64,000 nucleotides of DNA from Methylophaga sp. (GTDB lineage: Bacteria > Pseudomonadota > Gammaproteobacteria > Nitrosococcales > Methylophagaceae). The notes beneath the pieces were generated by a model, which saw only the letters and a list, made by a program, of their open reading frames with translations, did no database searches and was not told where the DNA came from. Below, one piece after another: positions 19,904-48,970 of this stretch. The translations under genes were made by a program, and so were the position numbers. The stretch lies in contig DRHW01000020.1 of NCBI GenBank assembly GCA_011053005.1, positions 1-64,000 of the forward strand, read 5' to 3'. Numbering within the stretch: the first letter of the stretch is position 1; each line of letters begins with the position of its first letter.

Positions 19904-20596
19904 ATGTCTGATTCTAAAATCATTGTTGCCTTAGACTACCCCTCTGCCGATGCGGCATTAGCCTTAGCAAAACAACTGGATCCAGCACGTTGTAAACTTA
20001 AAGTAGGTAAAGAGCTTTTCACTCGTTCAGGTCCAGCCACTGTCGAAGCATTGGTTAAACAAGGTTTTGATATTTTCTTAGATTTAAAATATCACGACAT
20101 TCCTAATACCGTTGCTAAAGCCTGTTCTGCGGCAGCAGATTTAGGTGTATGGATGATGAATGTACATACGCTCGGTGGTAGTGCGATGATGAAGGCTGCT
20201 CGCCAAGCTATCGGCAATAATTCAGATCGCCCTTTGCTTATTGGTGTCACCTTATTGACCAGTATGGATCAAACAACATTTGATGAAATTGGTTTACAAG
20301 GCTCAATTAGCGACACCGTTTTACGCTTAGCTTCGCTTGCCGATAAAAGTGGCTTAGATGGCGTAGTTTGTTCTGCACAAGAAGCAACCATATTACGTAC
20401 TCAGCATGATACAAATTTTCAGCTCGTTACACCGGGAATTCGCCCTGAGAACAGTGAACAAGGTGATCAACATCGAACGATGACACCTGCACAAGCGATC
20501 GCCGCTGGCAGTAGTTATTTGGTCATTGGGCGTCCTATTACCGCAGCAACAGATCCAATGGCAGCACTTTCAGCCATTGAACTTCGTTTGAATTAA
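19904..20596 (+). CDS. pyrF: Orotidine 5'-phosphate decarboxylase (PyrF)
   Basis: Decarboxylates OMP to UMP, the last step of pyrimidine synthesis. The start [19 protein letters not shown] is preceded by GGAAG eight nt away; an earlier in-frame start is unlikely. The catalytic [12 protein letters not shown] (Asp-x-Lys-x-x-Asp type) is present, as are LVTPGIRPE and [10 protein letters not shown] for phosphate binding. At 230 residues it is normal. It is a lone rightward gene between leftward tgt and the motility block, ended by its own terminator. Confidence 0.96.
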
Positions 20597-23199: not shown

Positions 23200-23254
23200 C
23201 CTATTCCTCCACCGTCATTTCGCTGACGTTTTACTTAAATTTACTAGATAAGAA

Positions 23255-23270
23255 AGCAATCAACATGCCA
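23255..23270 (-). promoter_or_regulatory. Sigma-54 promoter of fliK
   Basis: Minus strand TGGCATGTTGATTGCT fits TGGCACG-N4-TTGCW with one change, keeping GG-N10-GC. It is 56 nt upstream of the fliK ATG. FleQ or FlrC would be the activator. Confidence 0.82.
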
Positions 23271-23364: not shown

Positions 23365-24531
23365 TTAAAACAACTCAATGTCGCCTTCGCCTAAATCTTG
23401 TTGAGAAACCGCCTGATGTTTAACTGAAGCAATTTTAGGTTTAAGTAAGGTTAGCGAGGTTTCAAGCTGGGTTAATAATTCACGGTAATCATTTAATAAC
23501 TCTGGGTTATTGCGTACGCCATGCAATTTATCAACAAGTTCAGTTAAGTCGGCAACAGCATCGATTCGATGCGAAATATGCGCTGATAATTGCGTACACA
23601 TATCTTCAAACTGCAATGATGTCACCGCCTGATTGACCATCATGCTAATTCGTTGGCCAGCTTGCCCTGTCTGCTCAAGTATGTCTTTTGAATGTTTCTC
23701 CATCTTAGCCATCGTGCTCGACATTTCAGCGATATGTTGTTTACCATTTACAGCCACGTTCATATCGGCTGAAACGACTTTGCTCACTACATCTGTTGCC
23801 GCCGTTAATGCTTTTTTTACATCTGTTGCTAGCAGATTAATCTCTTCACTAAAATCATCTGATTTTCTAGATAATTTACGCACTTCATCTGCAACAACAG
23901 CAAAGCCACGCCCTGCTTCCCCAGCACGAGCGGCTTCAATGGCGGCATTTAACGCTAATAAATTTGTTTGAGATGCAATGTCTTTAACATCACCCAATAA
24001 CGAAAATACACCATTTACTTTTTCAGACATATCATCAAGTCGTTGCATGAGATACATGCTGTCTTCACTAGTATTGATGACTTGCTCGACAAAATAATTT
24101 AAGAGTTTTTCTGTTTCTACTGCAAAGTGACTTAGGCTCTCATCATCATCTTGTTGTAACAAGCCGAATATTAGGGTCGATTGTTCACTCGTTTGTGCAC
24201 TCAAGCCCTGAAAACTATCCGTTAATTGCATAATGGCATTTTGTACTAAATCATTTACTTGTTGGCTTTCAGCACGGATCAATGACACCTGCTCCACTAA
24301 ATGACCATGTGCTTCATCATGTAACGCATTAACCGTACTTGAGAGCTTGTCTTCTGTGTGAATAACGGCAGCTTTTTCTATATAAGGCTTCTTGTTAAAA
24401 AAAGACGGCAAAAAATACCCGCCTAAGGCAGTAATAATAACAAAACCACCCGCCATATAATCCAATTGCCATATCGCTACAAACGTAATAACGAGCGTAT
24501 AACTTAATAGTGCCAACAATTTCTTATTCAT
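23365..24531 (-). CDS. Methyl-accepting chemotaxis protein with DIELF C-terminus
   Basis: A receptor of about 388 residues. Two short hydrophobic segments (about 4-40) anchor it with virtually no periplasmic loop, followed directly by helices and the signalling tip [18 protein letters not shown]. No HAMP is obvious. After the signalling helices comes a helical tail (about 290-370) and a flexible end, LGEGDIELF. That end resembles the end of CheD in this cluster (GGIELF). GGAAG lies five nt before the chosen ATG. It has its own sigma-54 promoter and lies between cheB and fliK. Confidence 0.9.
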
Positions 24532-24590
24532 ATTTTCTTCCATAAAATAAGGCGCAAGGCATTTACCTTTTGCTTATTAACATAAACGTC

Positions 24591-24606
24591 AGCAATTACT
24601 ATGCCT
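24591..24606 (-). promoter_or_regulatory. Sigma-54 promoter of the DIELF chemoreceptor
   Basis: Minus strand AGGCATAGTAATTGCT keeps GG-N10-GC and a full TTGCT -12 element. It lies about 60 nt upstream of the receptor ATG, in the gap after cheB. Confidence 0.7.
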
Positions 24607-24681
24607 CTAGTACGCTATGCTGATTTTTCCTGCCCAACTATGTTTTTATCATCCTTGTTGACTGCACAACGAGTAAAGCTT

Positions 24682-25761
24682 TCAAGCCAAACTCATTAAT
24701 TTAGCAGCGATTTGATCAAGCGGTATTTGTAATTCTGCTGCACCAATTTTAATTGCTTGCATTGGCATTCCCCACACAACCGAACTTTTCTCATCTTGCA
24801 CAAAATTAAAAGCACCCGCTTCTTTCATTTCTAACATACCTTGCGCACCGTCATCTCCCATACCCGTTAACATCACGCCAATCGCATTCACGCCAACATT
24901 TTGAGCAACAGATCTAAACAATACATCAACGGAAGGCTTATGACGACTCACTGCTGGACCGTCATTCAGTCTGCAATAAAATCGTGCTCCGCTGCGCTCA
25001 ACCATCAAATGTTGACCGCCGGGAGCAATATAAGCATGACCAGGTAAAATTTGCTGACCGTCTGTGGCTTGACAGACATTAACGGCAGATAAACCATTCA
25101 CTCGCTCGGCAAACTGGCCGCTGAATGAGGCAGGAATATGTTGCGTTATGACAATACCGGGGCAATTAGAAGGCAGCATTTTTAGTATGTCTTTAATCGC
25201 TTCAGTTCCGCCAGTAGATGAGCCTATCGCGATAATTTTATCGGTAGTCCTTAAATGAGCAGGTATGGCCATAGGAGATCGTTTTGCCAACACTGCGTCG
25301 GCGGTTAATTTTGCCGGAACATCGTAAACAATAGTCTTCTCTCGTCGCAGGTTATTCACATTAACGCTAGCAGCAACTTTTACTTTCTCAATAAGTTCAT
25401 TAGCGTAGTCGACTAAGCTATTACTCAAGTCAATTTTAGGCTTCGCCACAAAATCAACTGCGCCTAATTCTAAGGCTTCAAATGTGACTCGAGCCCCTTT
25501 CTCCGTTAGTGTCGAGACCATAACAACTGGAAGCGGATGTAAACGCATCAAGTTTTTAAGAAACGTGATGCCATCCATCCGTGGCATTTCAACATCCAAA
25601 GTCAAGACATCAGGCTTGAGTCGTTTTATCTTCTCTCTCGCCTCAAAAGGATCAATAGCTGTGCCAATGACTTCAATATCTGGATCTGAATTTAATATTT
25701 CAGATAGTAGCTTTCTAACTAAGGCTGAATCATCAATAATGAGCACCGTAATTTTAGCCAT
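24682..25761 (-). CDS. cheB: CheB, receptor methylesterase/glutamine deamidase
   Basis: CheB removes methyl groups from receptors when phosphorylated by CheA. The N-terminal receiver (about 1-120) has the acidic pair in [10 protein letters not shown], the phosphorylated aspartate in [12 protein letters not shown], and lysine in AKP. The C-terminal esterase has the triad: serine in [10 protein letters not shown], histidine in [11 protein letters not shown], aspartate in [11 protein letters not shown]. The start MAKITVLI was chosen because earlier in-frame codons would add a non-family extension. It is last in cheR-cheD-cheB. The linker is long (about 120-175). Confidence 0.96.
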
Positions 25762-25858
25762 GTTGTTAGTTAACCTCTGTAAATAAATCGCTAAAATATA
25801 ACGCGTTTTCAATCTCGTTATTGTTATTAAAAAGAGTCATATACGTGCATTAATTGCT

Positions 25859-26488
25859 CTAAAACAACTCAATGCCGCCCGAACTAGGCTGCGTCGCTAA
25901 TTTATGACCATAAAGCTTCTCACGCTGAATCAAAGTATCATTTTTAAGGCTCTTTAATCTACGCACGCGTAAGCGTCCAGTAGACGGCCAATAAACAACT
26001 TTACGTGGATAGATATCACCCAAGTCTTGGATAACGACATTAATACTTTCCATCTCTAAATAGGCGATTACAAAGTTAATATTTTGAGCGCCTATGTCGT
26101 ACATATTATCCATAATTCGCCCTCCACCAGTCAGTTTCACCTCTAAATTTTCACGATTCCCGCCGAGCTTTAAAATATCATTAATGAGATGTTCCATTGC
26201 GTAGCTGCCATAACGATCAGCTGAACTCATCCATTCGTCATTGCTATGAGGAGCTTTAAGCGGCAACATAAAATGATTCATTCCACCAACACCTAAAACT
26301 TTATCTCTAATACAGGCTGAAACACAGGAACCCAATGTGGTGGCGATGACTTCATCAGGATGCGTACTAACATAATATTCGCCAGGTAAAATCTTTGCCG
26401 TCCATCTTTTATTAACTGGATCCCAATAGCGATTGACATGATCGAACTGTTTTAAACAAGGGGGTTGTGATGGAAAGCTTTCCATCAC
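25859..26488 (-). CDS. cheD: CheD, chemoreceptor glutamine deamidase
   Basis: CheD deamidates receptor glutamines. The catalytic cysteine is Cys55 in TTLGSCVSACIRD and the histidine is His72 in GGMNHFMLP, both intact. At 209 residues it has an N-terminal extension of about 35 residues with YWDPVNKRWTAKILPGEYYVS, as in proteobacterial CheD. It ends in SSGGIELF, similar to the end of the nearby receptor. Its start overlaps the cheR stop by 4 nt. Confidence 0.95.
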   Translation of the reverse strand: MMESFPSQPPCLKQFDHVNRYWDPVNKRWTAKILPGEYYVSTHPDEVIATTLGSCVSACIRDKVLGVGGMNHFMLPLKAPHSNDEWMSSADRYGSYAMEHLINDILKLGGNRENLEVKLTGGGRIMDNMYDIGAQNINFVIAYLEMESINVVIQDLGDIYPRKVVYWPSTGRLRVRRLKSLKNDTLIQREKLYGHKLATQPSSGGIELF

Positions 26489-27333
26489 GACATATTCTTT
26501 TGATAAATGGTCTGTCCCAAAGAGTCAAAACGTGTTGACACTTTAAACAGTGTTTCTGAATGTCCAATAAATAAATATGCGTCGTCAGCAAGAATATCGG
26601 CATAGCGATCAAATAAAATACGTTGCGTATTTTTATCAAAATAAATAACTACGTTTCGACAAAACATTAAGTCAAACGGCCTTGACATTGGCCATTCCTG
26701 CAATAAATTGAGTCGTTTAAAAGTAATCATTTTTTGTAATTCAGGGCTAATTTTAACCAACTCAGCATTGTTGCCAGTGCCTCGCCTAAACCATCGTTTT
26801 ATTCGCTTTTCATCTAAGCCATCAATGCGATCACTACGATAAATACCTGCTTTACCGTGAGCAACCACATTGGCATCTAAGTCCGTTGCCAAAATCTTAA
26901 CATCCCAGTCATCAAAATCAGGTAATGCTTCTTTTAATGCAATAGCGATACTGTATGGCTCTTCCCCTGTAGAACAACCTGCAGACCAAATCCGTAAATG
27001 TTTTTTATTGCCCTTGAGCTTAACCAATTGAGGAATAACCGTATTTTTTAAAAATTCAAAATGATGTTTTTCACGAAAAAATGCCGTTAAATTAGTCGTA
27101 ATAGCATTAATCATGAATTCTTGTTCGACTTCATCACCCGCATCGAGGGCATCAATAAAAGCACTGAAGCTATCAAAATGGCCATGACGGATGCGTTTAG
27201 ACAATCGCCCGTAAACCATATCTTTTTTCTTTTCTGTCAGCACAATCCCTGTATGAGCTGACACGAATAAGCGGATCCGTTCAAAATCATCGTCGGTGAA
27301 CTTAAATTCTCTGTCTTGAATTATCTCAGCCAT
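26485..27333 (-). CDS. cheR: CheR, chemoreceptor methyltransferase
   Basis: CheR methylates receptor glutamates with SAM. The N-terminal helical domain (about 10-75) precedes the SAM-binding domain with IWSAGCSTGEEPYSIAI, ILATDLDANVVAHGKAG and FDLMFCRNVVIYFD, all CheR signatures. At 282 residues it is normal. The receptor gene immediately upstream ends in a pentapeptide able to tether CheR. Confidence 0.96.
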   Translation of the reverse strand: MAEIIQDREFKFTDDDFERIRLFVSAHTGIVLTEKKKDMVYGRLSKRIRHGHFDSFSAFIDALDAGDEVEQEFMINAITTNLTAFFREKHHFEFLKNTVIPQLVKLKGNKKHLRIWSAGCSTGEEPYSIAIALKEALPDFDDWDVKILATDLDANVVAHGKAGIYRSDRIDGLDEKRIKRWFRRGTGNNAELVKISPELQKMITFKRLNLLQEWPMSRPFDLMFCRNVVIYFDKNTQRILFDRYADILADDAYLFIGHSETLFKVSTRFDSLGQTIYQKNMS

Positions 27334-27420
27334 TATCTCGTTAGTCCTTTAATATCCAACCGAAACGACTAGAAAATTTTATTTCTATACAGCCATAAAG
27401 TCAGCATCAAAAACCTTCCG

Positions 27421-29805
27421 TTAAAATTCGTCCCACTCATCATCTGATGATATTGGTGGTGATGACAAAGGTTTAGGAGCAAGCTTAGCACTTGGCGCGA
27501 TAGGGGTAGGTCGAGTTTGAGCTTTGACTTCCACTTTTTTAGTTGCTGGTGCAGATACTTCAACACCCGTATTAAAGAAAGTCATTAAGCGCTGTAACCC
27601 TTTTCCTTGTTCTTCTAATGACTCACTTGCCGCCGCAGCTTCTTCAACCAGCGCCGCATTTTGCTGTGTCATTTCATCCATTTGCGTGACCGCTTTATTC
27701 ACTTGCTCGATACCTTGTGTTTGCTCAGCACCAGCTGCTGCAATTTCAGAAATAATATCGCCCACCTTTTTGGCGCCGATCACTATTTCTTCTAAGGTTC
27801 TACCGGATTCATCCACCAGCATTGAACCTTCTTTTACTTTTTCACCACTATCATTAATCAATTCTTTAATTTCTTTAGCAGCAGAAGCAGAGCGTTGGGC
27901 CAAATTTCTCACTTCAGAAGCCACTACAGCAAAACCACGTCCTTGCTCACCTGCGCGTGCCGCTTCAACGGCGGCATTCAATGCTAATAAGTTAGTTTGG
28001 AAGGCTATCTCATCAATCACGCCAATGATGTCGGTCACTTTTTTACTCGATGCACTGATAGCCGTCATTGCTGAAATAGCATTTTTAATGACTGCGCCGC
28101 CTTTTTCAGCCTGCTCTCTAGCATTCGCTGCTAACTGATTCGCTTGGCGGGCATTATCAGAATTTTGACGAACCGTACTGGTCAATTCTTCCATGCTTGA
28201 TGCGGTTTCTTCTAATGAAGAAGCTTGCTCTTCTGTTCGTTGGCTTAAGTCGATATTGCCTTCAGAAATCTCACTCGAAGCCATCGCAATACTACTCGCT
28301 GTTTCATTAATTTCTTTTACCGTTTCAGCCAATTTTGAAATGGTCTGATTAATGGCTGTTTGCAACATAGCAAACTCGCCTTCATATTGACCTTCTAAAC
28401 TTTGAGTCAAATCACCACTAGATAAGGCACTCATTACTGCTGAAGTATCCATCATGACTTTTTCTACGGTCATTTGAAGTTGTTTATTTTCAGTTATATC
28501 AGAAGCGTATTTAACAACGCGATAAGGCTTGCCATTCAAATCTAAAATAGGATTATAAGAGGCTTGTAACCAGACTTCTTTGCCACCTTTTCCAATACGT
28601 TTATATTCGCCCGCATCGTACTCACCGCGATTCAATTTTGCCCAAAACTCAGCATACTCGGGACTCGCAGCCATACTCGGCTCGGCAAACATGCGGTGAT
28701 GTTTGCCGACCACCTCATCGCGCGTATAACCAACAACATTGAGAAAATTCTGATTAATATCGGTGATGATGCCATCCATATTAAAACTGATAACGCCCAT
28801 CGCTTTATCAATGGCATCTAACTGACATGAGATATCAGCATTTTGCAGTTTATCGCTGGTAATATCAGTGGCATATTTGACGACTTTAAAAGGCTTACCA
28901 TCCGCATTCAAAATAGGATTATAAGACGCTTGCAACCATACTTCTCTGCCACCTTTTGCAAGGCGTTTATATTCACCTGCATCAAATTCTGCACGATTTA
29001 GTTTTGCCCAAAACTCTGCATATCCGGCACTAGCGGCCACACTCGGTTCGGCAAACATACGATGATGCTGGCCGATCACCTCATCACGCGTATAACCGAC
29101 AACATTGAGAAAATTCTGATTGATATCGATGATCGTGCCATCCATATCAAAACTGATAACGCCCATAACTTTACTAATGGCTTGTAACTGACCTTCAAGA
29201 TCCATTGCTCTTTCGTTATCGGTGCCTAATCCTTCATTGCTCGTAATCATCTCTTTTGCCTCCAACGGCTCATATGCTTCTAACATAGTTGTTGCGATTT
29301 TATTTAATGTATTTTGCCACGCCAACTTTATCGCAGGCGTCCAGAGTTCACCTGCAAACTCAGCCATTACGACTAATAAATTATCAATAAATAAAGGGTA
29401 ATGCGCCGCAGTAACACCATAATGAACATGACGTGCGCCTAATCCTTTTAAATACTCATTAAGTAGATCGGGTTTATGCAGGTTATGTACCAAAAGTACG
29501 AGTGCTGCGGATAATTTCTTCTGCTGCTCATGGATTGAAACCGTTGAAAACAAAGGAATTAAATGAACATTATCATCAAGCAATCGTTGATAGAACCGAG
29601 CAGAAAGAGCTTCACCGTACGGCGCTAAAGTGGCAAAACTTTCCTTTATTAATGCCATTTCTTTTTCAACAGCTCGACGAGATGGACCACGTCTTAACCG
29701 TGAACGTGTTTTTATTGTTTGCTGAGGCTCAGGTGTCTCTGACTCATTTGCCTTTGTGAGCCATGCCATAGGATCGTCGCCCATTGGAGGCCTATTTTCA
29801 GCCAT
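27421..29805 (-). CDS. Globin-PAS-PAS-HAMP chemoreceptor with EWDEF tether
   Basis: A soluble 794-residue chemoreceptor with no membrane segment. Residues about 50-178 are a globin: FYQRLL carries the B10 Tyr72, the E7 position is a Gln (94 or 95), [10 protein letters not shown] carries the proximal His126, and WTPAIKLAW with MLEAYE closes the fold, most like flavohemoglobin and Vitreoscilla globins. Two near-identical PAS domains follow (about 209-320 and 331-442), then a HAMP-like segment and a signalling domain with [18 protein letters not shown]. The protein ends EWDEF, a CheR/CheB-binding pentapeptide. Sensing of O2 or NO for energy taxis is inference. Its ATG overlaps the parA stop. Confidence 0.93.
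28450..28815 (-). repeat. Second copy of a 366-bp tandem PAS-coding repeat
   Basis: Codons 331-452 of the globin chemoreceptor. It repeats the preceding 122 codons in frame with high DNA similarity, including long runs of identity around the [15 protein letters not shown] coding stretch. Confidence 0.85.
28816..29181 (-). repeat. First copy of a 366-bp tandem PAS-coding repeat
   Basis: Codons 209-330 of the globin chemoreceptor. Matching landmarks in the two copies are exactly 366 bases apart (122 codons), showing an in-frame tandem duplication. Confidence 0.85.
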
Positions 29806-30563
29806 CAGCTCGTTCTCCCACTTAATAAGTCTTGTGCTAATGACTGATAATCTTCAGCGCCAGCACTTTTATCTTTGTAGTCAAATATCGATTTCCCAAA
29901 GCTTGGACATTCTGCTAATGCTACGTTTTCTCTTATCATGGTGGTCAACACTCGGCCTGGAAAGTACTTTAATATTTTCAGTCTTACTTGTTCTGTCAGC
30001 TTACGGTTTAACTGCATTCTTGTTGAGACAATCCATACCCGAATACGGTGGCCTAAGACCGTTTCTGCTCGCTTTAATATTTGCATCATCCGTGATAAGC
30101 CCTGCAGTGATAAATAATCACCGGATACTGGTATCACTAACTCATCGGCTGCAAACATCGCATTAATACATAACAAACCTGAAGAAGGTGGACAATCTAT
30201 TAATACAAAATCATCTGCCATTAATGAGGATGAGGCTATCGCTCGTTTTAGGGCCTTTCCTCGTGATGCACCACCGACTGTAACCGTTTCAAAATCAGCC
30301 AAATTATCACCTGCACTAATCATTTTTAAATTGTCACGAACAACGATCAAATGTTCATCTAACCCATCACCTTCTAACAAAATTCGGTCTAAGCCACCTT
30401 GACCATTTTCTAAGCCTAGACTAATCGCTACGTGGTTTTGCGGGTCCATATCCAACAAGGTGACTTTTTTACCTGCCAATGCCAAAGCGAAGCCAAGATT
30501 GACCGTAGTCGTGGTTTTACCCACACCGCCTTTTTGATTCATGATGGCAATAATTCGACCCAT
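29805..30563 (-). CDS. parA: ParA/Soj-type ATPase of the chemotaxis cluster
   Basis: A 252-residue ATPase with the deviant Walker [15 protein letters not shown] at the N-terminus and [13 protein letters not shown] for the ParA switch region. No ParB gene lies nearby. In polar-flagellate gammaproteobacteria such a gene next to cheW places chemoreceptor arrays at the cell pole (ParC-like) rather than acting in chromosome partition, so that role is inferred here. It is 22 nt after cheW, and its stop shares a base with the receptor start (TGATG). Confidence 0.93.
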
Positions 30564-30585
30564 ATATATTAGTTACGACCGGAAA

Positions 30586-31083
30586 TTAACCCAGCGCCTC
30601 GACACTTAATAAACTATCAATATTAAGAATAATCATCATATTGTCTTCAATCGAAACCAGCCCTGAAATAAAGTCAGTATCAATTGAGCTACCAAAGTCA
30701 GGGGCGGGCTTAATATTTTCTGGCAATATATTATGGGCGTCAGACACACCATCAACGACGATCGCAACCGTACGTTGTCTCGGTCCATTCACCTTAAGCA
30801 CCACCACTACCGTTGTTGAGATATAAGCACGCGCAGGCATACCAAAACGTAAACGCAAATCAACGACGGGAACAATCGTGCCACGCAAATTTAAGACACC
30901 ACATAAATAATGCGGGGAGTTAGGAATATGCGTGACCTTATCCCAGCCTTTTATTTCCTGTACCCGTAAGATCTCAACGCCATATTCTTCATCATCAAGT
31001 AAAAAGGTTAAATATTGCTCTGAACCGTCTTGTTCTTGTTCGAGTAAATCTAAAGGCTCGTTGTGTGTTGGTAACTCGCTCAT
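30586..31083 (-). CDS. cheW: CheW, receptor-kinase coupling protein
   Basis: CheW links receptors to CheA in the signalling array. The single CheW domain spans about 20-160, with YLTFLLDDEEYGVEILRVQEIKG, HYLCGVLNLRGTIVPVVDLR and GLVSIEDNMMIILNID. At 165 residues the length is normal. It sits between cheA and parA in the same operon. Confidence 0.95.
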   Translation of the reverse strand: MSELPTHNEPLDLLEQEQDGSEQYLTFLLDDEEYGVEILRVQEIKGWDKVTHIPNSPHYLCGVLNLRGTIVPVVDLRLRFGMPARAYISTTVVVVLKVNGPRQRTVAIVVDGVSDAHNILPENIKPAPDFGSSIDTDFISGLVSIEDNMMIILNIDSLLSVEALG

Positions 31084-31094
31084 CTACTTAATCC

Positions 31095-33242
31095 TTAGGC
31101 CGCGCGATCATTGTCAAGAGTGATCTGGGTTAATGAAGGATCACGATATAGTGCCATGACGCCTGATATATCGAGAATGAGTGCCACTCGACCATCACCT
31201 AAAATAGTGGCACCAGATATGCCAATAACTTTACGATAATTCGTTTCTAAACTTTTAATCACGACCTGCTGTTGGCCTAATAAATCATCAATGAATAAAG
31301 CCATTTTTTGGCCATCGCCTTCAACAATCACTAGCAAACCATCTTCTAGCTCGGTTATTTTTGGCGTTAAGTTAAAAACGCTATACAGGCGAATGATCGG
31401 TATGTATTCATCACGTAATTGAAACAACTCGCCTTTACCGGAAACCTTCTTAATATCAATGGCTTTAACTTCTACTGTTTCAATAATTGAAATCAACGGA
31501 ATAATAAAACTTTCATCAGCGACACGTATCGTCTGTCCATCCATAATCGCTAAAGTAAGCGGTAGACGAATGGTAAAAACAGAGCCTTCACCACGTTTAG
31601 AAAATACCTCAACACTGCCGCCAAGGCTATTGATGTTTTTACGTACGACGTCCATACCCACGCCACGACCAGACACATCCGTGACCACCTCGGCGGTTGA
31701 AAAGCCGGGTAAAAATACTAACTCATGAATTTTTTCGGGACTGAGTGCATCACCCTCGTTGACTAAGCCTTTTTCTATCGCTTTCGCTAAGATTTTATCT
31801 TCATTAAGACCAGCGCCATCATCGTGGATCTCAATAATAATATTGCCACCTTGATGAAAGGCTTTGAGTAGCAAAGTGCCTGTTTCATCTTTACCTGCTG
31901 CTAATCGGATATCCGGTGTTTCCAATCCATGATCGAGAGAATTTCGTACGAGATGTACTAGGGGATCGCCAATTTTCTCCATCACGGTTTTATCAATTTC
32001 GGTTTGCTCGCCGGTGAGTTTCAATTCAACTTTTTTGCCCATTTTGTCGGTCATATCATGCACTAAACGAGGGAATCGATTAAATACAAAACTGATGGGT
32101 AACATCCTGATCCGCATAATACCTTCTTGCATTTCACGGGTGTTGCGTTCTAATTGTGCCAAACCATCGATCAAAATAGGTAACATATCTGGCGTAAAAT
32201 TCTCACCGATCTGACTTAACATAGACTGAGTAATAACGAGTTCGCCAACCATATTCACTAACGAATCGACTTTATCGGTACCCACTCTAATAGACGCTGC
32301 AGGTGCGGGGTTTGCTTTTGCTTCTTGATGAGTCGCTTGATTATTTACAGTTGCAGAAAGATTTTCCGCACTTTCCGATAAAGGCGGCGCTGCATCTTCT
32401 GCTAATGCGCTGCCTTCAATGTCACTGGCCATGTTTTTTGAATCAAGACGTGTGTTGTCTAAATCGTCAATCGTTTGTGATTCGACAGAAACTGAGTTTG
32501 AATCCAGCGGTGTAATGACAAGATCACAGTCATCTTCCACCCATTCAAATATTTCCAACACGTCCGATTCTGCAATCTCGCCTAGTAAGGTTAATTGCCA
32601 CTTAAGGTAACTATCTTCTGGCTCTAAGTCAGCAAATGCAGGCAACTCATCATCATTCATCTCGATGGATAAATCACCCAAACTTTCCAACTCACGAAAC
32701 ATGCGTACTGGATCATTACCCGTTTGAAATAAGTGATGATGAGGACGAAAATCGATTATCCAGCCTGAACCATTGGACGTTTCAGTGGTTTCTAAGTCGA
32801 TCGCTTGCTGATCCTCTCCCATTACAGTGTCATCAACAGTTGGTGAATTAAGCTTGTCAGCCACCATCATTTCTAGTTTCTGACGAATATCGGCGATGCG
32901 CACATCATCTGTATTTTGTTTTTGCTGCACTGCTGTCAACATTTCACGCAGTACATCAACCGCTTCTAATAATAAATTTGTCGATTCAACACTAACTTCT
33001 CGTTGACCATTTCTCATTTCATCGAGCATGGTTTCCATCACATGCGTGAATTCAGAAACACCCATAAAACCAAACGTACCCGCGCCGCCTTTAATAGAAT
33101 GTGCCGCTCTAAAAATAGTGTTAATCTCATCGACATCTGCGGCACCCACGTTCAGATTGAGCAGACCGCTTTCCATTGCATCAAGCCCTTCGAAGCTTTC
33201 TTCGAAAAACACATCGTGAAACTGTGAAATATCAATGCTCAT
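31095..33242 (-). CDS. cheA: CheA, chemotaxis histidine kinase
   Basis: CheA autophosphorylates and passes phosphate to CheY and CheB. The HPt domain carries His48 in AAHSIKGGAGTFG. A middle domain (about 160-250) begins GWIIDFRPHHHLFQTGNDPV, a fold seen in a subset of proteobacterial CheA, in place of a classical P2. Dimerisation, ATPase (HDDGAGLNEDKI and GRGVGMDVV boxes) and the CheW-like regulatory domain follow. At 715 residues it is complete. It starts the cheA-cheW-parA-receptor-cheR-cheD-cheB run. Confidence 0.96.
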   Translation of the reverse strand: MSIDISQFHDVFFEESFEGLDAMESGLLNLNVGAADVDEINTIFRAAHSIKGGAGTFGFMGVSEFTHVMETMLDEMRNGQREVSVESTNLLLEAVDVLREMLTAVQQKQNTDDVRIADIRQKLEMMVADKLNSPTVDDTVMGEDQQAIDLETTETSNGSGWIIDFRPHHHLFQTGNDPVRMFRELESLGDLSIEMNDDELPAFADLEPEDSYLKWQLTLLGEIAESDVLEIFEWVEDDCDLVITPLDSNSVSVESQTIDDLDNTRLDSKNMASDIEGSALAEDAAPPLSESAENLSATVNNQATHQEAKANPAPAASIRVGTDKVDSLVNMVGELVITQSMLSQIGENFTPDMLPILIDGLAQLERNTREMQEGIMRIRMLPISFVFNRFPRLVHDMTDKMGKKVELKLTGEQTEIDKTVMEKIGDPLVHLVRNSLDHGLETPDIRLAAGKDETGTLLLKAFHQGGNIIIEIHDDGAGLNEDKILAKAIEKGLVNEGDALSPEKIHELVFLPGFSTAEVVTDVSGRGVGMDVVRKNINSLGGSVEVFSKRGEGSVFTIRLPLTLAIMDGQTIRVADESFIIPLISIIETVEVKAIDIKKVSGKGELFQLRDEYIPIIRLYSVFNLTPKITELEDGLLVIVEGDGQKMALFIDDLLGQQQVVIKSLETNYRKVIGISGATILGDGRVALILDISGVMALYRDPSLTQITLDNDRAA

Positions 33243-33318
33243 CGTTATCTCTACCTAAATTTAGACTACACGCTTCCACAAATAAACAGCCTGTCACTGT
33301 TTATTAAGGTCAGTTTTA

Positions 33319-33681
33319 CTATCCCAGCACTTTTCGAATGGTCGCTAGCAATTGCTCAGGATTGAAAGGTTTAACTAGCCAACCTGTCGCACCAGCAGCT
33401 CGCCCTTCTTGCTTTTTATCCATACCCGCTTCTGTTGTTAATACTAAAATCGGGGTAAATTTAAAGTTAGGCAACGCTCTTAACTCTTTTGTTAAGGTTA
33501 AACCATCCATAATCGGCATGTTGACATCAGTCAACACAGCATCAAACGACTGTGTCTTTGCGATATCTAATGCCTGCTTGCCATCGGCTGCTTCTACTAC
33601 GGTATGTCCAGCGGCCTTCAAGGTAAAAGCCACCATTTGTCTCATCGATGCTGAATCATCAACTGCTAAAATCTTTGCCAT
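33319..33681 (-). CDS. cheY: CheY, single-domain response regulator
   Basis: A 120-residue receiver with the acidic pair in VDDSASMRQM, the phosphorylated aspartate in AVLTDVNMPIMDG, Thr in LVLTTEAG and Lys in LVKPFNPEQL. It should carry the CheA signal to the flagellar switch. GGAG lies six nt before the chosen ATG. Next to the STAS gene, it resembles CheY-like proteins of cheY-cheA operons. No cheZ phosphatase gene is in the window. Confidence 0.93.
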   Translation of the reverse strand: MAKILAVDDSASMRQMVAFTLKAAGHTVVEAADGKQALDIAKTQSFDAVLTDVNMPIMDGLTLTKELRALPNFKFTPILVLTTEAGMDKKQEGRAAGATGWLVKPFNPEQLLATIRKVLG

Positions 33682-33757
33682 CGGATTCTCCATTTCCCCT
33701 TATTGACATATTGTTATGCCAAATCTATTTAATTAATCACCTGTCAGTGACTCATCT

Positions 33758-34063
33758 TCACGCTATATCAATTGCATTGTCTGCCAAATTTATCTTTGCT
33801 GATAAACCTAAGGTTTTAACATTCCGGACAAAAGTTTCACTAGCATCTTGCCACTGCAACACGTGCCCTTGTTTGGCAGCTTCTTTTGAAAAAGCGTAAA
33901 TCATCTGGATAGCAGCGGTATCAATGCGTTCAATTTTGCTGACATCAAAATGAATAAGATGACCGTCTGCCAAACCACTTAACGCTTGGGTATACATCTC
34001 GGCAACATTGGCAATTGCTAATACTTCGCCACAATCTATTACCGTTATTTCTTGATCAGACAT
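33758..34063 (-). CDS. STAS-domain protein (anti-sigma antagonist-like)
   Basis: A 101-residue single STAS domain: HFDVSKIERIDTAAIQMIYAFSKEA matches the phosphorylatable loop region of SpoIIAA-like proteins, with Thr following Asp rather than the usual Ser. No anti-sigma kinase is nearby. STAS genes often start cheY-cheA operons in gammaproteobacteria; the protein may tune the kinase array, but its role is not established. Confidence 0.88.
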   Translation of the reverse strand: MSDQEITVIDCGEVLAIANVAEMYTQALSGLADGHLIHFDVSKIERIDTAAIQMIYAFSKEAAKQGHVLQWQDASETFVRNVKTLGLSAKINLADNAIDIA

Positions 34064-40073: not shown

Positions 40074-41438
40074 TTATGCAGACTTCTTGCCAACCTTCTC
40101 AGGAATCGCAACACCGTCTTCTCTAAACCGTGTCAACTTATACCGTAGTGTGCGCTCACTTATACCCAGTTCATTTGCTGTAGCACGTCTTCCGCCATTG
40201 TTTTTCTCTAATGCTTCTATAATATGCCGTTGTTCATGGCTACGTAAATCATCATTTAATCGACTTTCACGGCCCTGTCCAATGTCAGTATTTTGACTAC
40301 TACTAAATTCAACATTCATCGCTTCAAAAGCCAGATCTTGTGCCTTAATACTGTCACCAGATTGCAAAATTAAAGCACGCTGTAAAACATTGTCCAGCTC
40401 ACGCACATTCCCTTGCCAATAATGTGATAACAAGGCATTCACTGCGCCTCTATCTAACTCGGGAACCCTACGTTTTGCTTGAAGACAGTGACGGGTTATC
40501 AATTGTTGAGCCAATGGTAAAATATCGTCAGGTCTTTCTCTTAAAGGTAATAGATGCAAAGGAAAGACGTTTAAACGATAAAATAAATCTTCTCGGAAGC
40601 GGCCTTCTTTTATTTCTTCACGTAATACTCGGTTCGTGGTCGCAAGCACGCGAACATCTAGAGATAGTAATTTACGCCCACCCAATCGTTCTACTTCTCG
40701 CTCTTGCAATACGCGTAATAATTTAGCCTGCAAGCTCAAATCCATCTCAGAGATTTCATCAAGTAAAATCGTTCCATGTTGGGCTTGCTCAAATTTACCC
40801 GCATACGCTTGACTAGCACCAGTGAATGCACCTTTCTCGTAACCAAACAATGTCGCTTCCAGCATGTTTTCGGGAATCGCCGCACAGTTAATCGCGACAA
40901 ATGGATTGTTCACTCGTGGCGAATTATCGTGTAAAAATCGAGCGAGTACCTCTTTACCAGTACCACTTTCACCGCTAATTAAAACGGTTGCATTGGTATC
41001 GGCCACACGGCGGGATAAAGTTAATAAATCCTGTGAATTTTTATCTACTGCAATCATGTTTTCTGTATTCGCTACGGTACGAATGTAACGTTGTACACGA
41101 TCTAGTAAATCGTCGGCTTCAAACGGTTTAATCAAATAATCACTGGCACCATCATGCATCGCTTCAACCGCACCTTGCACTGTGCCATAAGCCGTCATTA
41201 ATAATATTGGTAAATCAGGCAATAATGCTCGTGCCTTTTTTAATAAGGTATGACCATTCATTGGTCGCATTTGCAAGTCACTTAATAATAAATCAAATGA
41301 TTCATTGGTCAGTTTATCTAATGCACTTTGACCTTGATCGGTAGATGAGACGCTATAACCCGCTAACTCTAAGGTGTCACATAGTGCACCACGTAGATCG
41401 TTATCATCTTCGACGACTAATACTGTTGATTTATTCAT
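40074..41438 (-). CDS. flrC: FlrC/FleR, sigma-54-dependent flagellar response regulator
   Basis: A receiver (about 5-120, phosphorylated aspartate in LLLSDLQMRPMNG), an AAA+ domain with SGESGTGKEVLARFLH and the sigma-54 contact loop GAFTGA, and a C-terminal Fis-type helix-turn-helix (ATANELGISERTLRYKLTRF). It should activate class III flagellar promoters when phosphorylated by FlrB. AGGA six nt before the ATG MNKSTVLV fixes the start. It is coupled to flrB (2 nt). Confidence 0.95.
   Translation of the reverse strand: MNKSTVLVVEDDNDLRGALCDTLELAGYSVSSTDQGQSALDKLTNESFDLLLSDLQMRPMNGHTLLKKARALLPDLPILLMTAYGTVQGAVEAMHDGASDYLIKPFEADDLLDRVQRYIRTVANTENMIAVDKNSQDLLTLSRRVADTNATVLISGESGTGKEVLARFLHDNSPRVNNPFVAINCAAIPENMLEATLFGYEKGAFTGASQAYAGKFEQAQHGTILLDEISEMDLSLQAKLLRVLQEREVERLGGRKLLSLDVRVLATTNRVLREEIKEGRFREDLFYRLNVFPLHLLPLRERPDDILPLAQQLITRHCLQAKRRVPELDRGAVNALLSHYWQGNVRELDNVLQRALILQSGDSIKAQDLAFEAMNVEFSSSQNTDIGQGRESRLNDDLRSHEQRHIIEALEKNNGGRRATANELGISERTLRYKLTRFREDGVAIPEKVGKKSA
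40077..40092 (-). promoter_or_regulatory. Sigma-54 promoter of the fliE operon inside the flrC 3' end
   Basis: Minus strand TGGCAAGAAGTCTGCA fits the -24/-12 consensus with exact GG-N10-GC spacing. It covers the last codons of flrC, 38 nt before the fliE ATG. Confidence 0.75.
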
Positions 41439-41440
41439 GC

Positions 41441-42586
41441 TTAATCCTTGCTTGTTAGTTTTTGGGCGGTCAACATAAATTGCTCTGCGGGTTGATACAA
41501 AGGCAAACGTAAGCAAAATGTACTGCCTTCGCCTTCGTCACTTTCAAACCACAAATCACCCTTGTGCGCCTTTGCTATTGAATATACGACCGCTAATCCC
41601 AAACCCGTTCCTGATGATCGTGTGGTGAAAAAAGGCGTTAATATTTTATCGAGATCAGCTTCAGCAATCCCAACACCATCATCTTCGACACTAATTTCAA
41701 TATAGATCGCATCATCATCTTGAACAATATCAGCAAACACGATGACTTCTCCGCCAGACTTACATGCTAAACGCGCATTATTGACTAAATTGTTCAGCGC
41801 GCTGGTCAGGGCATCTTTACTGCCATAAACATAGGCACCTTTAGTCTCATCTTGAATTTCAAAATACACATGTTCACTATCGGACTGATATCTAAATTGC
41901 TGTTCAACACTCAATAATAAATCTTGTAGTAAAACAGGTGCTGTTTCCGCCATATCGCCGCGGGAAAAGGCCAACATATCTTTTACCAAATGCTCCATGT
42001 GACTGATACTGCTATGTAATCGTTTTGCAAAACGCTGAGTTAATTCCGGATCGGAATTTTCTTTTAACAGTGGTGCAACATATAACAAGGCTGTCGATAA
42101 GGGGGTACGAATTTGATGTGCTAGACGTGCTGCCATTTCCCCCATCGATGATAATCGTTGTAAATGTGATACTTGATGTTGAAGTTGGCGTGTTTCGGTA
42201 ACATCGTTGATCAGCACAATCTGCCCTGGTTCGCCATCTAACGGACTGGTAGAAATATGGACCAATCGACCATCATTTAATGACATGTCATGACCATCAT
42301 TGTGCTGTGGACGAAATGCACGATCGATAATTGTCGTCCAAGCCTGACCATCTAGCGATGTTCCGAGTAATTCGACTGCAGCAGCATTGCTTTGTTCAAT
42401 AATGCCATCGCCATTTAACACAATAACGCCGCCAGGTAAGACCGCTAACAGTCTTGTCATTCGCATAGTCGAAAGGGTTATGTGAGCCTGTTGATTTATA
42501 GATGAATGAATATTAGACAAGCCGGCATTGTCCGACATAGTCGAATTATAGTGTGAATACTGCTCGTCTTTTGCTAATTGATTCAT
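41441..42586 (-). CDS. flrB: FlrB/FleS, cytosolic sensor histidine kinase
   Basis: A soluble kinase of about 381 residues: PAS domain (about 45-150), histidine in LAHQIRTPLSTALLY, and an ATPase domain with NNLVNNARLA, DDGVGIAE and SGTGLGLAVVYSIAKAH. It has no membrane segment, as in FleS/FlrB. GGAG six nt upstream fixes the ATG MNQLAKDE. The partner regulator flrC follows directly. Confidence 0.95.
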   Translation of the reverse strand: MNQLAKDEQYSHYNSTMSDNAGLSNIHSSINQQAHITLSTMRMTRLLAVLPGGVIVLNGDGIIEQSNAAAVELLGTSLDGQAWTTIIDRAFRPQHNDGHDMSLNDGRLVHISTSPLDGEPGQIVLINDVTETRQLQHQVSHLQRLSSMGEMAARLAHQIRTPLSTALLYVAPLLKENSDPELTQRFAKRLHSSISHMEHLVKDMLAFSRGDMAETAPVLLQDLLLSVEQQFRYQSDSEHVYFEIQDETKGAYVYGSKDALTSALNNLVNNARLACKSGGEVIVFADIVQDDDAIYIEISVEDDGVGIAEADLDKILTPFFTTRSSGTGLGLAVVYSIAKAHKGDLWFESDEGEGSTFCLRLPLYQPAEQFMLTAQKLTSKD

Positions 42587-42596
42587 TGTGCTCTCC

Positions 42597-42625
42597 ACAT
42601 AATGACAGGGGTCATTTCATTATGT
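42597..42625 (-). other. Leader hairpin abutting the flrB ribosome-binding site
   Basis: ACATAATGA and TCATTATGT form a perfect 9-bp stem with an 11-base loop, directly before GGAGAGCACAATG. A competing 6-bp hairpin, AATGAC/GTCATT, uses part of the same 3' arm. The hairpin is transcribed from the sigma-54 start and could control flrB translation. Confidence 0.6.
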
Positions 42626-42628
42626 AAG

Positions 42629-42645
42629 AGCAAAAAACGTGCCCA
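42629..42645 (-). promoter_or_regulatory. Sigma-54 promoter of flrBC
   Basis: Minus strand GGCACG-TTTT-TTGCT matches the sigma-54 consensus perfectly at -24 and -12. It is about 45 nt before the flrB ATG and is expected to be driven by FleQ/FlrA, whose gene is just upstream. Confidence 0.9.
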
Positions 42646-42697
42646 ATGATAAATTAGCTATAAAAATAAAGGGGTTAAGTGACTTATTTAATTTCCT

Positions 42698-42711
42698 GTC
42701 AAACTACTGAC
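42698..42711 (-). promoter_or_regulatory. Putative FleQ box upstream of flrBC
   Basis: GTCA-AACTAC-TGAC is an inverted repeat with the arms and spacing of the Pseudomonas FleQ consensus. It is centred about 60 nt upstream of the -24 element, a position from which an enhancer-binding protein can act. Confidence 0.6.
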
Positions 42712-42737: not shown

Positions 42738-44207
42738 TTAATCATCATCTCGATGAATGCCATATTTACGCATTTTTTCAACTAACGTAGTTCGACGCAT
42801 TTTTAGTCTATTTGCAGCATGTGCTACAACGCCAGCAGCTTCATCTAAGGCTTGTTTAATCAGTAAGTATTCAAGATTAGCGAGATGCTCTTTTAAATCT
42901 AAGCCTTCTTCTGGCAAGCTTTCAATATCAGGAGAAGGTATATAGTCTACGATGCTGTCAGACATGACATCAAGTGACTCTAGTTCTACTCGTTTTGTTA
43001 GTTTTGATGCCGGTGTTTCTTCAATAACGGTGACAACCGATTCAGGTAAATCATCGCCATCTACCTGAAATTTTGCTGGTAAGTCATCATAATCAACGGT
43101 GCCATAAGGATAGAGAATCACTAGACGCTCAACGACATTGGCTAATTCTCGGACATTACCTGGCCACTGATATCGGTATAAAGAAGCAATCGCTGCTGAG
43201 GTTAAACGAACCGTGCCACGATTTTCGTGTTCGACGCGGGTAATCAATTCATTAATCAATAAGGGAATATCTTCTGGACGCTCGCGTAATGCAGGCATTT
43301 CTATAGGAAAAACATTCAGGCGATAAAATAAATCTTCACGAAACCGACCATCTGCGATGTGATCTTCTAAATTGCGGTGCGTAGCCGCAATAACACGCAC
43401 ATTAGCAATCATTGTTTTATTACTGCCAACGCGTTCATAGGTACGCTCTTGTAATACACGTAATAATTTTACCTGCATAGGCAATGGCATATCGCCAATT
43501 TCATCAAGAAAAAGCGTGCCGCCTTCAGCTAACTCAAAACGCCCTTTACGTGAGGTTATCGCGCCAGTAAATGAGCCTTTTTCATGGCCAAACAATTCGC
43601 TTTCTAATAACTCTGCTGGGATAGCGCCACAATTGACTGGCACAAACGGTTTTTGTTTACGTGACGACAGATGATGAAGGTTTCGAGCTACAACTTCTTT
43701 ACCCGTGCCCGACTCGCCTAATATCAATACATTTGCATCAGATTCAGATACTTGATCAATCATCCGTTGCACTGCTTTCATCGGGCGACTATTACCAACT
43801 AAACGTCGAAAATCATAGATTTGATTATCCGCTACGCCATCATGCTGACCGCGATAAATTACAGCTTGTTGTAGAGCATTACTTAATTGGGGGTATTTAA
43901 CAGGAATGGATAGAGAACCTAAAGTGCCAGGGAAATCTACGACTTCAGAATCAGGTAAATCTAATTGAAAAACAGGTACACGACTTTCGTGATTAACAAG
44001 CTCACGTAATAACTGTTTAGTTTGGTGCTTATCACCGCAGTCACCCACAATCGCCATTGCAATATTGGACAAATCACCCGCATCTTCAAACCACAAATCA
44101 ATATTTTCAACTATAATCGCTTGGCAGTTTATAAACTCGACTAATGTCGATAATAACTCACGTCGGACCGGATCGACATCTACCAGCAATACATTGTTTG
44201 AACTCAT
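42738..44207 (-). CDS. flrA: FlrA/FleQ, master flagellar sigma-54 activator
   Basis: Master activator of flagellar genes and likely c-di-GMP sensor. The N-terminal FleQ domain (about 1-120) is receiver-like without a clear phosphorylation site. The AAA+ domain has LGESGTGKEVVARNLHH and LAEGGTLFLDEIGDMPL; the sigma-54 loop reads GSFTGA instead of GAFTGA. The C-terminal helix-turn-helix ends RRTTLVEKMRKYGI, the FleQ signature. GGAG five nt before the ATG fixes MSSNNVLL as the start; about 489 residues. Confidence 0.95.
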   Translation of the reverse strand: MSSNNVLLVDVDPVRRELLSTLVEFINCQAIIVENIDLWFEDAGDLSNIAMAIVGDCGDKHQTKQLLRELVNHESRVPVFQLDLPDSEVVDFPGTLGSLSIPVKYPQLSNALQQAVIYRGQHDGVADNQIYDFRRLVGNSRPMKAVQRMIDQVSESDANVLILGESGTGKEVVARNLHHLSSRKQKPFVPVNCGAIPAELLESELFGHEKGSFTGAITSRKGRFELAEGGTLFLDEIGDMPLPMQVKLLRVLQERTYERVGSNKTMIANVRVIAATHRNLEDHIADGRFREDLFYRLNVFPIEMPALRERPEDIPLLINELITRVEHENRGTVRLTSAAIASLYRYQWPGNVRELANVVERLVILYPYGTVDYDDLPAKFQVDGDDLPESVVTVIEETPASKLTKRVELESLDVMSDSIVDYIPSPDIESLPEEGLDLKEHLANLEYLLIKQALDEAAGVVAHAANRLKMRRTTLVEKMRKYGIHRDDD

Positions 44208-44272
44208 TTTGACTCCAGCCATTACATCATAATTACATTGAATAAATTAACGTAAGGTACTAAAAATACTAG

Positions 44273-44301
44273 AGTTAAACACCTTTCAGGTTGATTGTCA
44301 A
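44273..44301 (-). promoter_or_regulatory. Putative sigma-70 promoter of fleQ/flrA
   Basis: Minus strand TTGACA, 17 nt, TTAACT, about 66 nt upstream of the ATG. The -35 is perfect and the -10 is weak. The remaining 44223-44461 is AT-rich, with no other gene and no clear terminator for fliT. Confidence 0.5.
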
Positions 44302-44310
44302 AAAAATGAC
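44297..44310. promoter_or_regulatory. Putative FleQ box overlapping the fleQ promoter
   Basis: GTCA-AAAAAA-TGAC matches the FleQ-box arms and spacing. The left arm lies within the -35 hexamer TTGACA of the candidate promoter, which suggests autorepression. Confidence 0.55.
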
Positions 44311-48954: not shown

Positions 48955-48970
48955 TGCACAGGGCGTGCCA
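48955..48970 (-). promoter_or_regulatory. Sigma-54 promoter of fliC2
   Basis: Minus strand TGGCACGCCCTGTGCA keeps GG-N10-GC, with a perfect -24 and one mismatch in the -12. It is 75 nt upstream of the fliC2 ATG. Confidence 0.85.

Follow-up and report, generated by a model that had tools for sequence, protein, structure and literature searches.

A Putative Class II FleQ-Dependent Enhancer–Promoter Unit Upstream of flrBC in Methylophaga and a Conserved FleQ-Type Box at fleQ

Gene Content of the flrBC Region

The analysed stretch of Methylophaga sp. DNA (hereafter the window) comprises 64,000 nucleotides, and its minus strand carries flagellar genes in the order fleQ/flrA, flrB, flrC, fliE, fliF, fliG, fliH, fliI, and fliJ. 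Upstream of this run are fliS, fliD, flaG, and two flagellin genes; chemotaxis genes and fliK are located downstream. The chemotaxis block (23365–34063), which includes cheY-like, cheA, cheW, ParA-like, aer2-like receptor, cheR, cheD, and cheB genes together with a further receptor gene, separates fliJ from fliK, and one additional receptor gene lies beyond fliK. A second flagellar/chemotaxis cluster occupies positions 168742–186840 of contig C2, where flhF was recognised by its profile and the other genes by their order and length.

The two-component pair is formed by flrB (41441–42598, minus strand), encoding a fleS-like sensor kinase with HisKA and HATPase_c domains, and flrC (40074–41516, minus strand), encoding a fleR-like response regulator and sigma-54 activator with Response_reg, Sigma54_activat, and HTH_8 domains. 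ATG 42586 is probably the true start of flrB, and flrC likely starts at about 41438. The master regulator gene fleQ/flrA is located at 42738–44222 (minus strand) and likely starts with ATG 44207. Three domains of its product scored above the Pfam cut-off: the N-terminal FleQ domain (PF06490), the AAA+ sigma-54 activator domain (PF00158, Sigma54_activat), and the Fis-type HTH (PF02954, HTH_8). The Walker A motif is GESGTGKE, and the GAFTGA loop reads GSFTGA, with one change. The best PDB match is P. aeruginosa FleQ (8p53; E 2.4e-154, aligned over 10–494), with which the recognition helix RRTTLVEKMRKYG is identical; this match and this helix confirm that the upstream regulator is a FleQ/FlrA orthologue, as the preliminary description of this DNA had it. 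The FR-x-LVG and ARN residues, which we take to be the c-di-GMP contacts of FleQ, are kept in the 8p53 alignment.

The flrBC Enhancer–Promoter Unit

Two regulatory elements are situated between fleQ and flrB. The first is a FleQ-type box at 42698–42711 (minus strand), the putative upstream enhancer of flrBC, which reads GTCAGTAGTTTGAC on the coding strand and GTCAAACTACTGAC on the plus strand and represents a GTCA-N6-TGAC dyad. The second is a sigma-54 (−24/−12) promoter of flrBC at 42629–42644 (minus strand), GGGCACGTTTTTTGCT, which matches the consensus TGGCACG-N4-TTGCW at 11 of 12 positions, the first T being the sole miss. From box start to promoter start there are 67 bp, and the gap between the two elements is 53 bp. 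The predicted +1 would be near 42618, so that the box would be centred at about −86 and flrB would start 20–32 nt further on (ATG 42586 or GTG 42598). The preliminary description gave both the dyad and the sigma-54 site upstream of flrBC with correct coordinates and sequence, and its distance of “about 60 nt” was fair; the promoter that it called “perfect” is there, but it is only near-perfect.

The stretch thus combines a −24/−12 element with a FleQ consensus box at enhancer distance, as is typical of class II FleQ/FlrA promoters, and the promoter, judged by position and orientation, faces the flrBC/fleSR pair adjoining fleQ/flrA. By these features, 42629–42711 is very probably a class II FleQ/FlrA enhancer–promoter unit for flrBC, and it is well conserved.

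Conservation of the Unit in Relatives

A DNA search for the promoter in 40 genomes gave a match in one of them, the window, and orthologous genes were therefore used instead. The genus set consisted of 29 Methylophaga-like genomes, 21 with an FlrB orthologue and 8 without; locus L062, which begins inside flrB at a contig end, was omitted. All 20 readable flrB loci of the genus have both a promoter (sigma-54 score ≥9) and a box, the latter being perfect in 13 loci and carrying one mismatch in the other seven.

The wider set was drawn from Methylophaga, Piscirickettsiaceae, and unassigned gammaproteobacterial MAGs, and then from other Gammaproteobacteria. Eighteen of the 80 named loci were dropped because the sequence read around flrB showed no upstream match to fleQ, some of them being cut by contig ends. 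Removal of 9 duplicates from 82 upstream regions gave 73 flrB upstream regions, and the two with no sigma-54 site of score 9 were left out, so that the box count refers to 71 loci. A box with at most one mismatch is present 48–95 bp upstream of the promoter start in 49 of these, and GTCA-N6-TGAC is the best of the 256 possible half-sites at flrB (49 loci; the next has 19, the median is 1). In 19 of the 71 loci the region from −160 to +60 gave no box at this limit of one mismatch; 13 of them have a box with two mismatches at −65 to −68, and one counted as boxless (L138) has a perfect box at −89, outside the 400 bases used. The exact IHF consensus occurs between box and promoter in 17 of the 71 loci.

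Another dyad, ACCA-N3-TGGT, ranked first in the flrB upstream regions (21 of 73, GTCA-N6-TGAC being second with 17). We rejected it, since its reading and its position ahead of the fleQ stop suggest that it is part of the sequence coding for the recognition helix of FleQ. A case of gene loss was also observed in genome G006, where locus L256 (G006:C4) keeps fleQ, fliE-/fliF-like sequence, and fliK, flrB is gone, and flrC is mostly lost, being represented by a remnant. The fleQ box of this genome is kept and its flrB box has one mismatch, but no flrB sigma-54 site was found there.

Spacing of Box and Promoter

The offset of the box from the flrB promoter falls into two classes within the genus, 64–68 bp in 15 loci and 54–56 bp in 5, with none between; in the wider set it peaks at 65–66 bp. 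Mapping of the classes on the FlrB tree gives five changes, of which at least three are forced by well-supported branches. Repeated shifts of roughly one turn of the helix are consistent with the binding of a protein that would be held to one face of the DNA and would reach the polymerase by a loop. We claim phasing only within the genus because the wider test was not significant once the main peak was removed: the 16 wider-set offsets off this peak do not support it (R 0.21 at 10.5 bp).

Frequency of the Dyad in the Window and Genome

Perfect GTCA-N6-TGAC dyads occur in the window five times against 0.67 expected, and none of 100 shuffles reached five. Apart from those at flrB and fleQ, they start at 20246 inside a pyrF-like gene, at 23214 near fliK, and at 40284 inside flrC. 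Sigma-54-like matches with at most two mismatches are no more frequent in the window than expected by chance (12 vs. 11.3). In the genome, the sigma-54 pattern with at most one mismatch is enriched (381 on both strands together vs. 195 for the reversed control).

At the scale of the whole genome, the dyad alone is poorly selective, with 57 perfect copies vs. 41 for the reversed pattern, which rules out this count as proof of FleQ boxes. One copy could not be placed and was left out of the location analysis; a simple ORF rule classes 45 of the other 56 as coding. The flagellar/chemotaxis clusters (46.3 kb), whose boundaries were drawn after the fact, contain 6 of the 57 dyads vs. 0.91 expected (P 3.7e-4), three of the six being inside genes. 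Enrichment of the motif near flagellar genes, proposed earlier as a check, is moderate within the clusters, and over the genome the dyad by itself is not selective. Similar experience was described in PMC6120874, where the P. aeruginosa FleQ motif occurs hundreds of times outside the ChIP peaks in P. fluorescens and is termed unreliable, and no consensus could be derived from the peaks.

These counts are the natural starting point for supposing that the flrBC dyad is a chance match beside a genuine sigma-54 promoter, the real enhancer being elsewhere: the excess over the reversed pattern is small and most located copies are coding. This supposition is largely contradicted by the position-specific conservation of the box, which is kept in all 20 loci of the genus and in 49 of the 71 of the wider set, where it is also the best of 256 half-sites, and we regard such a chance match as hardly credible. 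The flrBC unit is convincing because the pair of elements is conserved at a set distance, rather than because of any single sequence. A sigma-54 site (score ≥10) is found within 150 bp of only three of the 56 located dyads, those at flrB, fliK, and a GGDEF gene. The preliminary description stated that both boxes sit at regulator promoters, which is true for flrB and fleQ, but fliK and the diguanylate cyclase gene are boxed as well.

The Box Upstream of fleQ

The FleQ-type box upstream of fleQ is located at 44297–44310 (minus strand) and reads GTCATTTTTTTGAC. Its right arm with one additional A forms the −35-like hexamer TTGACA (44296–44301, minus strand), which is followed after 17 bp by an extended −10-like element, TGnTTAACT (44273–44281, minus strand). 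The latter is weak, as TTAACT matches TATAAT at only three of six positions.

The box is perfect in all 11 close relatives (the window counted) and in 19 of 20 genus loci, the exception being L262 (G043:C60), which has no box in the 295 bases before fleQ and shows a tandem-like repeated element there instead. Among the 62 named loci considered for the wider fleQ set, two were too short and five had a FleQ match starting past residue 30; 45 of 56 wider loci have the box with no more than one mismatch, and in the other 11 upstream regions no box of this quality was found. In a comparison of 56 fleQ with 56 flrB contexts, TTGACA occurs in 41 vs. 16, and a TTAACT-like hexamer follows at spacer 17 in 31 vs. 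3 and at any spacer of 15–19 in 36 vs. 19, respectively; the pattern by which the fleQ rows of the genus were selected here favours sequence rich in T.

The fleQ box overlaps a putative promoter element whose −35 role is suggested by its sequence. FleQ bound at this box would cover the −35, and for this reason self-repression by occlusion is the likeliest reading: FleQ most likely represses its own gene by occluding RNA polymerase from this putative promoter, with the weakness of the −10 as a caveat. The idea that FleQ limits itself, put forward in the preliminary description, is plausible in view of the conserved box overlapping the −35-like TTGACA. Data on P. fluorescens F113 given in PMC6120874 indicate that fleQ, fleSR, and fliK are likely FleQ-regulated according to ChIP-seq, and by analogy the fleQ result may serve as a precedent for FleQ acting at its own gene.

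Other Flagellar Promoters

The fliK gene has a sigma-54 promoter at 23255–23270 (minus strand), TGGCATGTTGATTGCT, and a FleQ-type box at 23214–23227 (minus strand), which lies in the leader, downstream of the promoter and 43 bp after its start. With promoters picked by hand in 22 of the 24 fliK loci, a box with at most one mismatch was found at +34 to +46 in 8 of the 22 genus loci, the window included, and GTCA-N6-TGAC was the best of 256 half-sites (the next had 6). In the fliK leaders of L233 and L239, the GTCA and TGAC arms are five bases apart rather than six, possibly a tolerated variant of the box.

The perfect dyad inside flrC (40284–40297, minus strand) precedes the sigma-54 site of fliE by 205 bp, and this site is kept in 12 of 12 loci. 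As a fliE enhancer the dyad was rejected: apart from the window, only L077 has it in perfect form, L079 and L084 have it with one mismatch at a similar place, and L085–L087 have a one-mismatch box at another position. We consider it probably non-functional because it is poorly conserved. No well-conserved box was detected at the fliE promoter in the 12 loci, and none with one mismatch or fewer was found around the fliL-like promoter on C2 between −220 and +160.

The sigma-54 promoter of the upstream flagellin gene (48955–48970, minus strand) represents a contrast case, since the region from −160 to +140 contains no box with one mismatch or fewer, and is presumably FlrC-dependent. It is of importance for the question of whether FlrC, and not FleQ, might bind the flrBC box and autoregulate flrBC, which could be imagined since FlrC is likewise a sigma-54 activator and its own operon is the target. 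The distribution of the box speaks against this, being absent from the flagellin promoter and present at fleQ, as does the FlrC recognition helix, which is different (GISERTLRYKLTRF); we find binding by FlrC very improbable and keep FleQ as the preferred reader.

The GGDEF Gene and a Second Possible Reader

Outside the flagellar clusters, the dyad was revealed upstream of a GGDEF (diguanylate cyclase) gene with an intact GGEEF (G000:C20:136994–137935). The whole unit (G000:C20:136883–137935, corresponding to L176:1504–2556; orthologues in L194–L217) is located among terpenoid and housekeeping genes. In G000, the dyad precedes the sigma-54 site TGGCACGCTTTTAGCT by 55 bp. The sigma-54 site is present in 24 of 24 orthologues, and a box with at most one mismatch lies 51–56 bp before it in 16 of 23 readable ones; the box count omits L199, whose contig ends too soon, and the GGDEF gene of G012, which is split (L218, L221), is not among the orthologues counted.

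Three genomes (G003, G008, and G040, the last being only 82% complete) yielded no FleQ at E 1e-120, yet their GGDEF boxes are perfect and the sigma-54 site is there. Therefore, another activator probably reads, or can use, the GGDEF-type box. A candidate is a sensorless sigma-54 activator of 308 aa (L297:1306–2229, minus strand, equal to G000:C19:167043–167966), which is present in 27 of the 29 genus genomes. Its C-terminal HTH is the nearest to that of FleQ in G000, G003, G008, and G040 (scores 77–82, the next best in any being 71), although this comparison excluded two G000 activators (C5 and C31) and included the 82% complete G040, and by the recognition helix alone it ties with two others in G003. 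The phyletic match between this activator and the GGDEF gene proved uninformative, since the activator is nearly universal and occurs also in genomes with no GGDEF orthologue (G005, G016, and G018), so that its distribution proves nothing.

It might be asked from these data whether the flrBC box, too, has a different reader, a sigma-54 activator whose HTH resembles that of FleQ, e.g., the 308-aa protein, acting alone or in competition with FleQ. The same box also precedes fleQ, and FleQ/FlrA activates fleSR in P. aeruginosa and flrBC in V. cholerae, according to PMC6120874 and PMC7064773, which makes such a reader at flrBC improbable and FleQ the preferred one. A broader scheme, in which the operator is common to FleQ (at fleQ, flrBC, and fliK) and to a second sensorless activator, the two meeting at the GGDEF gene with feedback through c-di-GMP, may be put forward for this genus as a tentative and rather doubtful idea. 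If it were true, flagellar commitment would raise c-di-GMP, which would restrain FleQ and provide a built-in negative feedback, and relatives devoid of FleQ would keep this loop under the second activator.

A further pair of dyads, GTCACACAGATGAC and GTCATCTGTGTGAC, which are reverse complements of each other, was observed in G000:C39 (L192:1507–1520 and 1549–1562) between multicopper oxidase and response-regulator genes, and is perhaps the operator of that regulator.

Discussion

The flrBC dyad agrees with the FleQ consensus quoted in PMC6120874, whose arms are GTCA and TGAC, and the identical recognition helix points to FleQ as the best candidate for reading it. We consider it very likely, from comparative sequence analysis, that the flrBC stretch is a class II FleQ(FlrA)-dependent sigma-54 promoter, and self-repression is the most likely role of the fleQ box. 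In the mechanism that we propose, a FleQ dimer, being part of a higher-order AAA+ assembly, would bind the dyad on one helical face, about 86 bp before the start site, and, via a short DNA loop, would contact and remodel the sigma-54 RNA polymerase closed at −24/−12. The flrB and flrC products would then be made, and FlrC would drive the later sigma-54 flagellar promoters, e.g., that of the flagellin gene. At the fleQ box, FleQ would block RNA polymerase at the −35, which would result in self-repression. FleQ may in addition be under c-di-GMP/FleN control. The circuit of the preliminary description, in which FleQ would drive FlrBC and limit itself, is largely right in outline, as the flrBC box and promoter and the fleQ box are conserved, but it is incomplete, lacking the fliK and cyclase boxes.

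Defining FleQ sites at flagellar promoters has proved difficult so far, and some of those in P. aeruginosa are reportedly located downstream of the promoter. No FleQ boxes of Methylophaga are reported in the open-licence literature among the matches listed, and the literature searched gave no binding or expression data for this Methylophaga. The 49 boxed flrB promoters out of 71, together with the spacing switches within the genus, represent a clean test ground for FleQ activation and self-limitation, and the conserved diguanylate cyclase promoter could link c-di-GMP to the same operator. The gene order flrA–flrB–flrC, which we take to be that of V. cholerae, is found in the window as well.

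The closest parallels come from three species. In V. cholerae, FlrA is required for flrBC expression (PMC7064773), and flrBC as the target of FlrA is the same relation as the one proposed here. In P. putida, a FleQ site overlapping a sigma-70-type promoter at PbcsD is the rationale for repression reported in PMC6424431; the Methylophaga case differs in that the target is fleQ itself and the TTGACA is formed by an arm of the box. In P. aeruginosa, FleQ acts near the promoter at flhA, fliE, and fliL and from a distance, with looping, at fleSR, as stated in PMC6120874. The Methylophaga fliK box, situated in the leader at +43 bp, resembles the former sites, although the gene is different and the fliE and fliL promoters of Methylophaga have no conserved box. 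The flrBC unit resembles fleSR in having the sigma-54 promoter of a flagellar two-component pair and the FleQ consensus arms GTCA/TGAC; it is different in that reproducible footprints failed at fleSR, by the account in the same paper, while Methylophaga offers one defined dyad at about −86. The unit is very probably a further example of the known class II type of FleQ/FlrA target.
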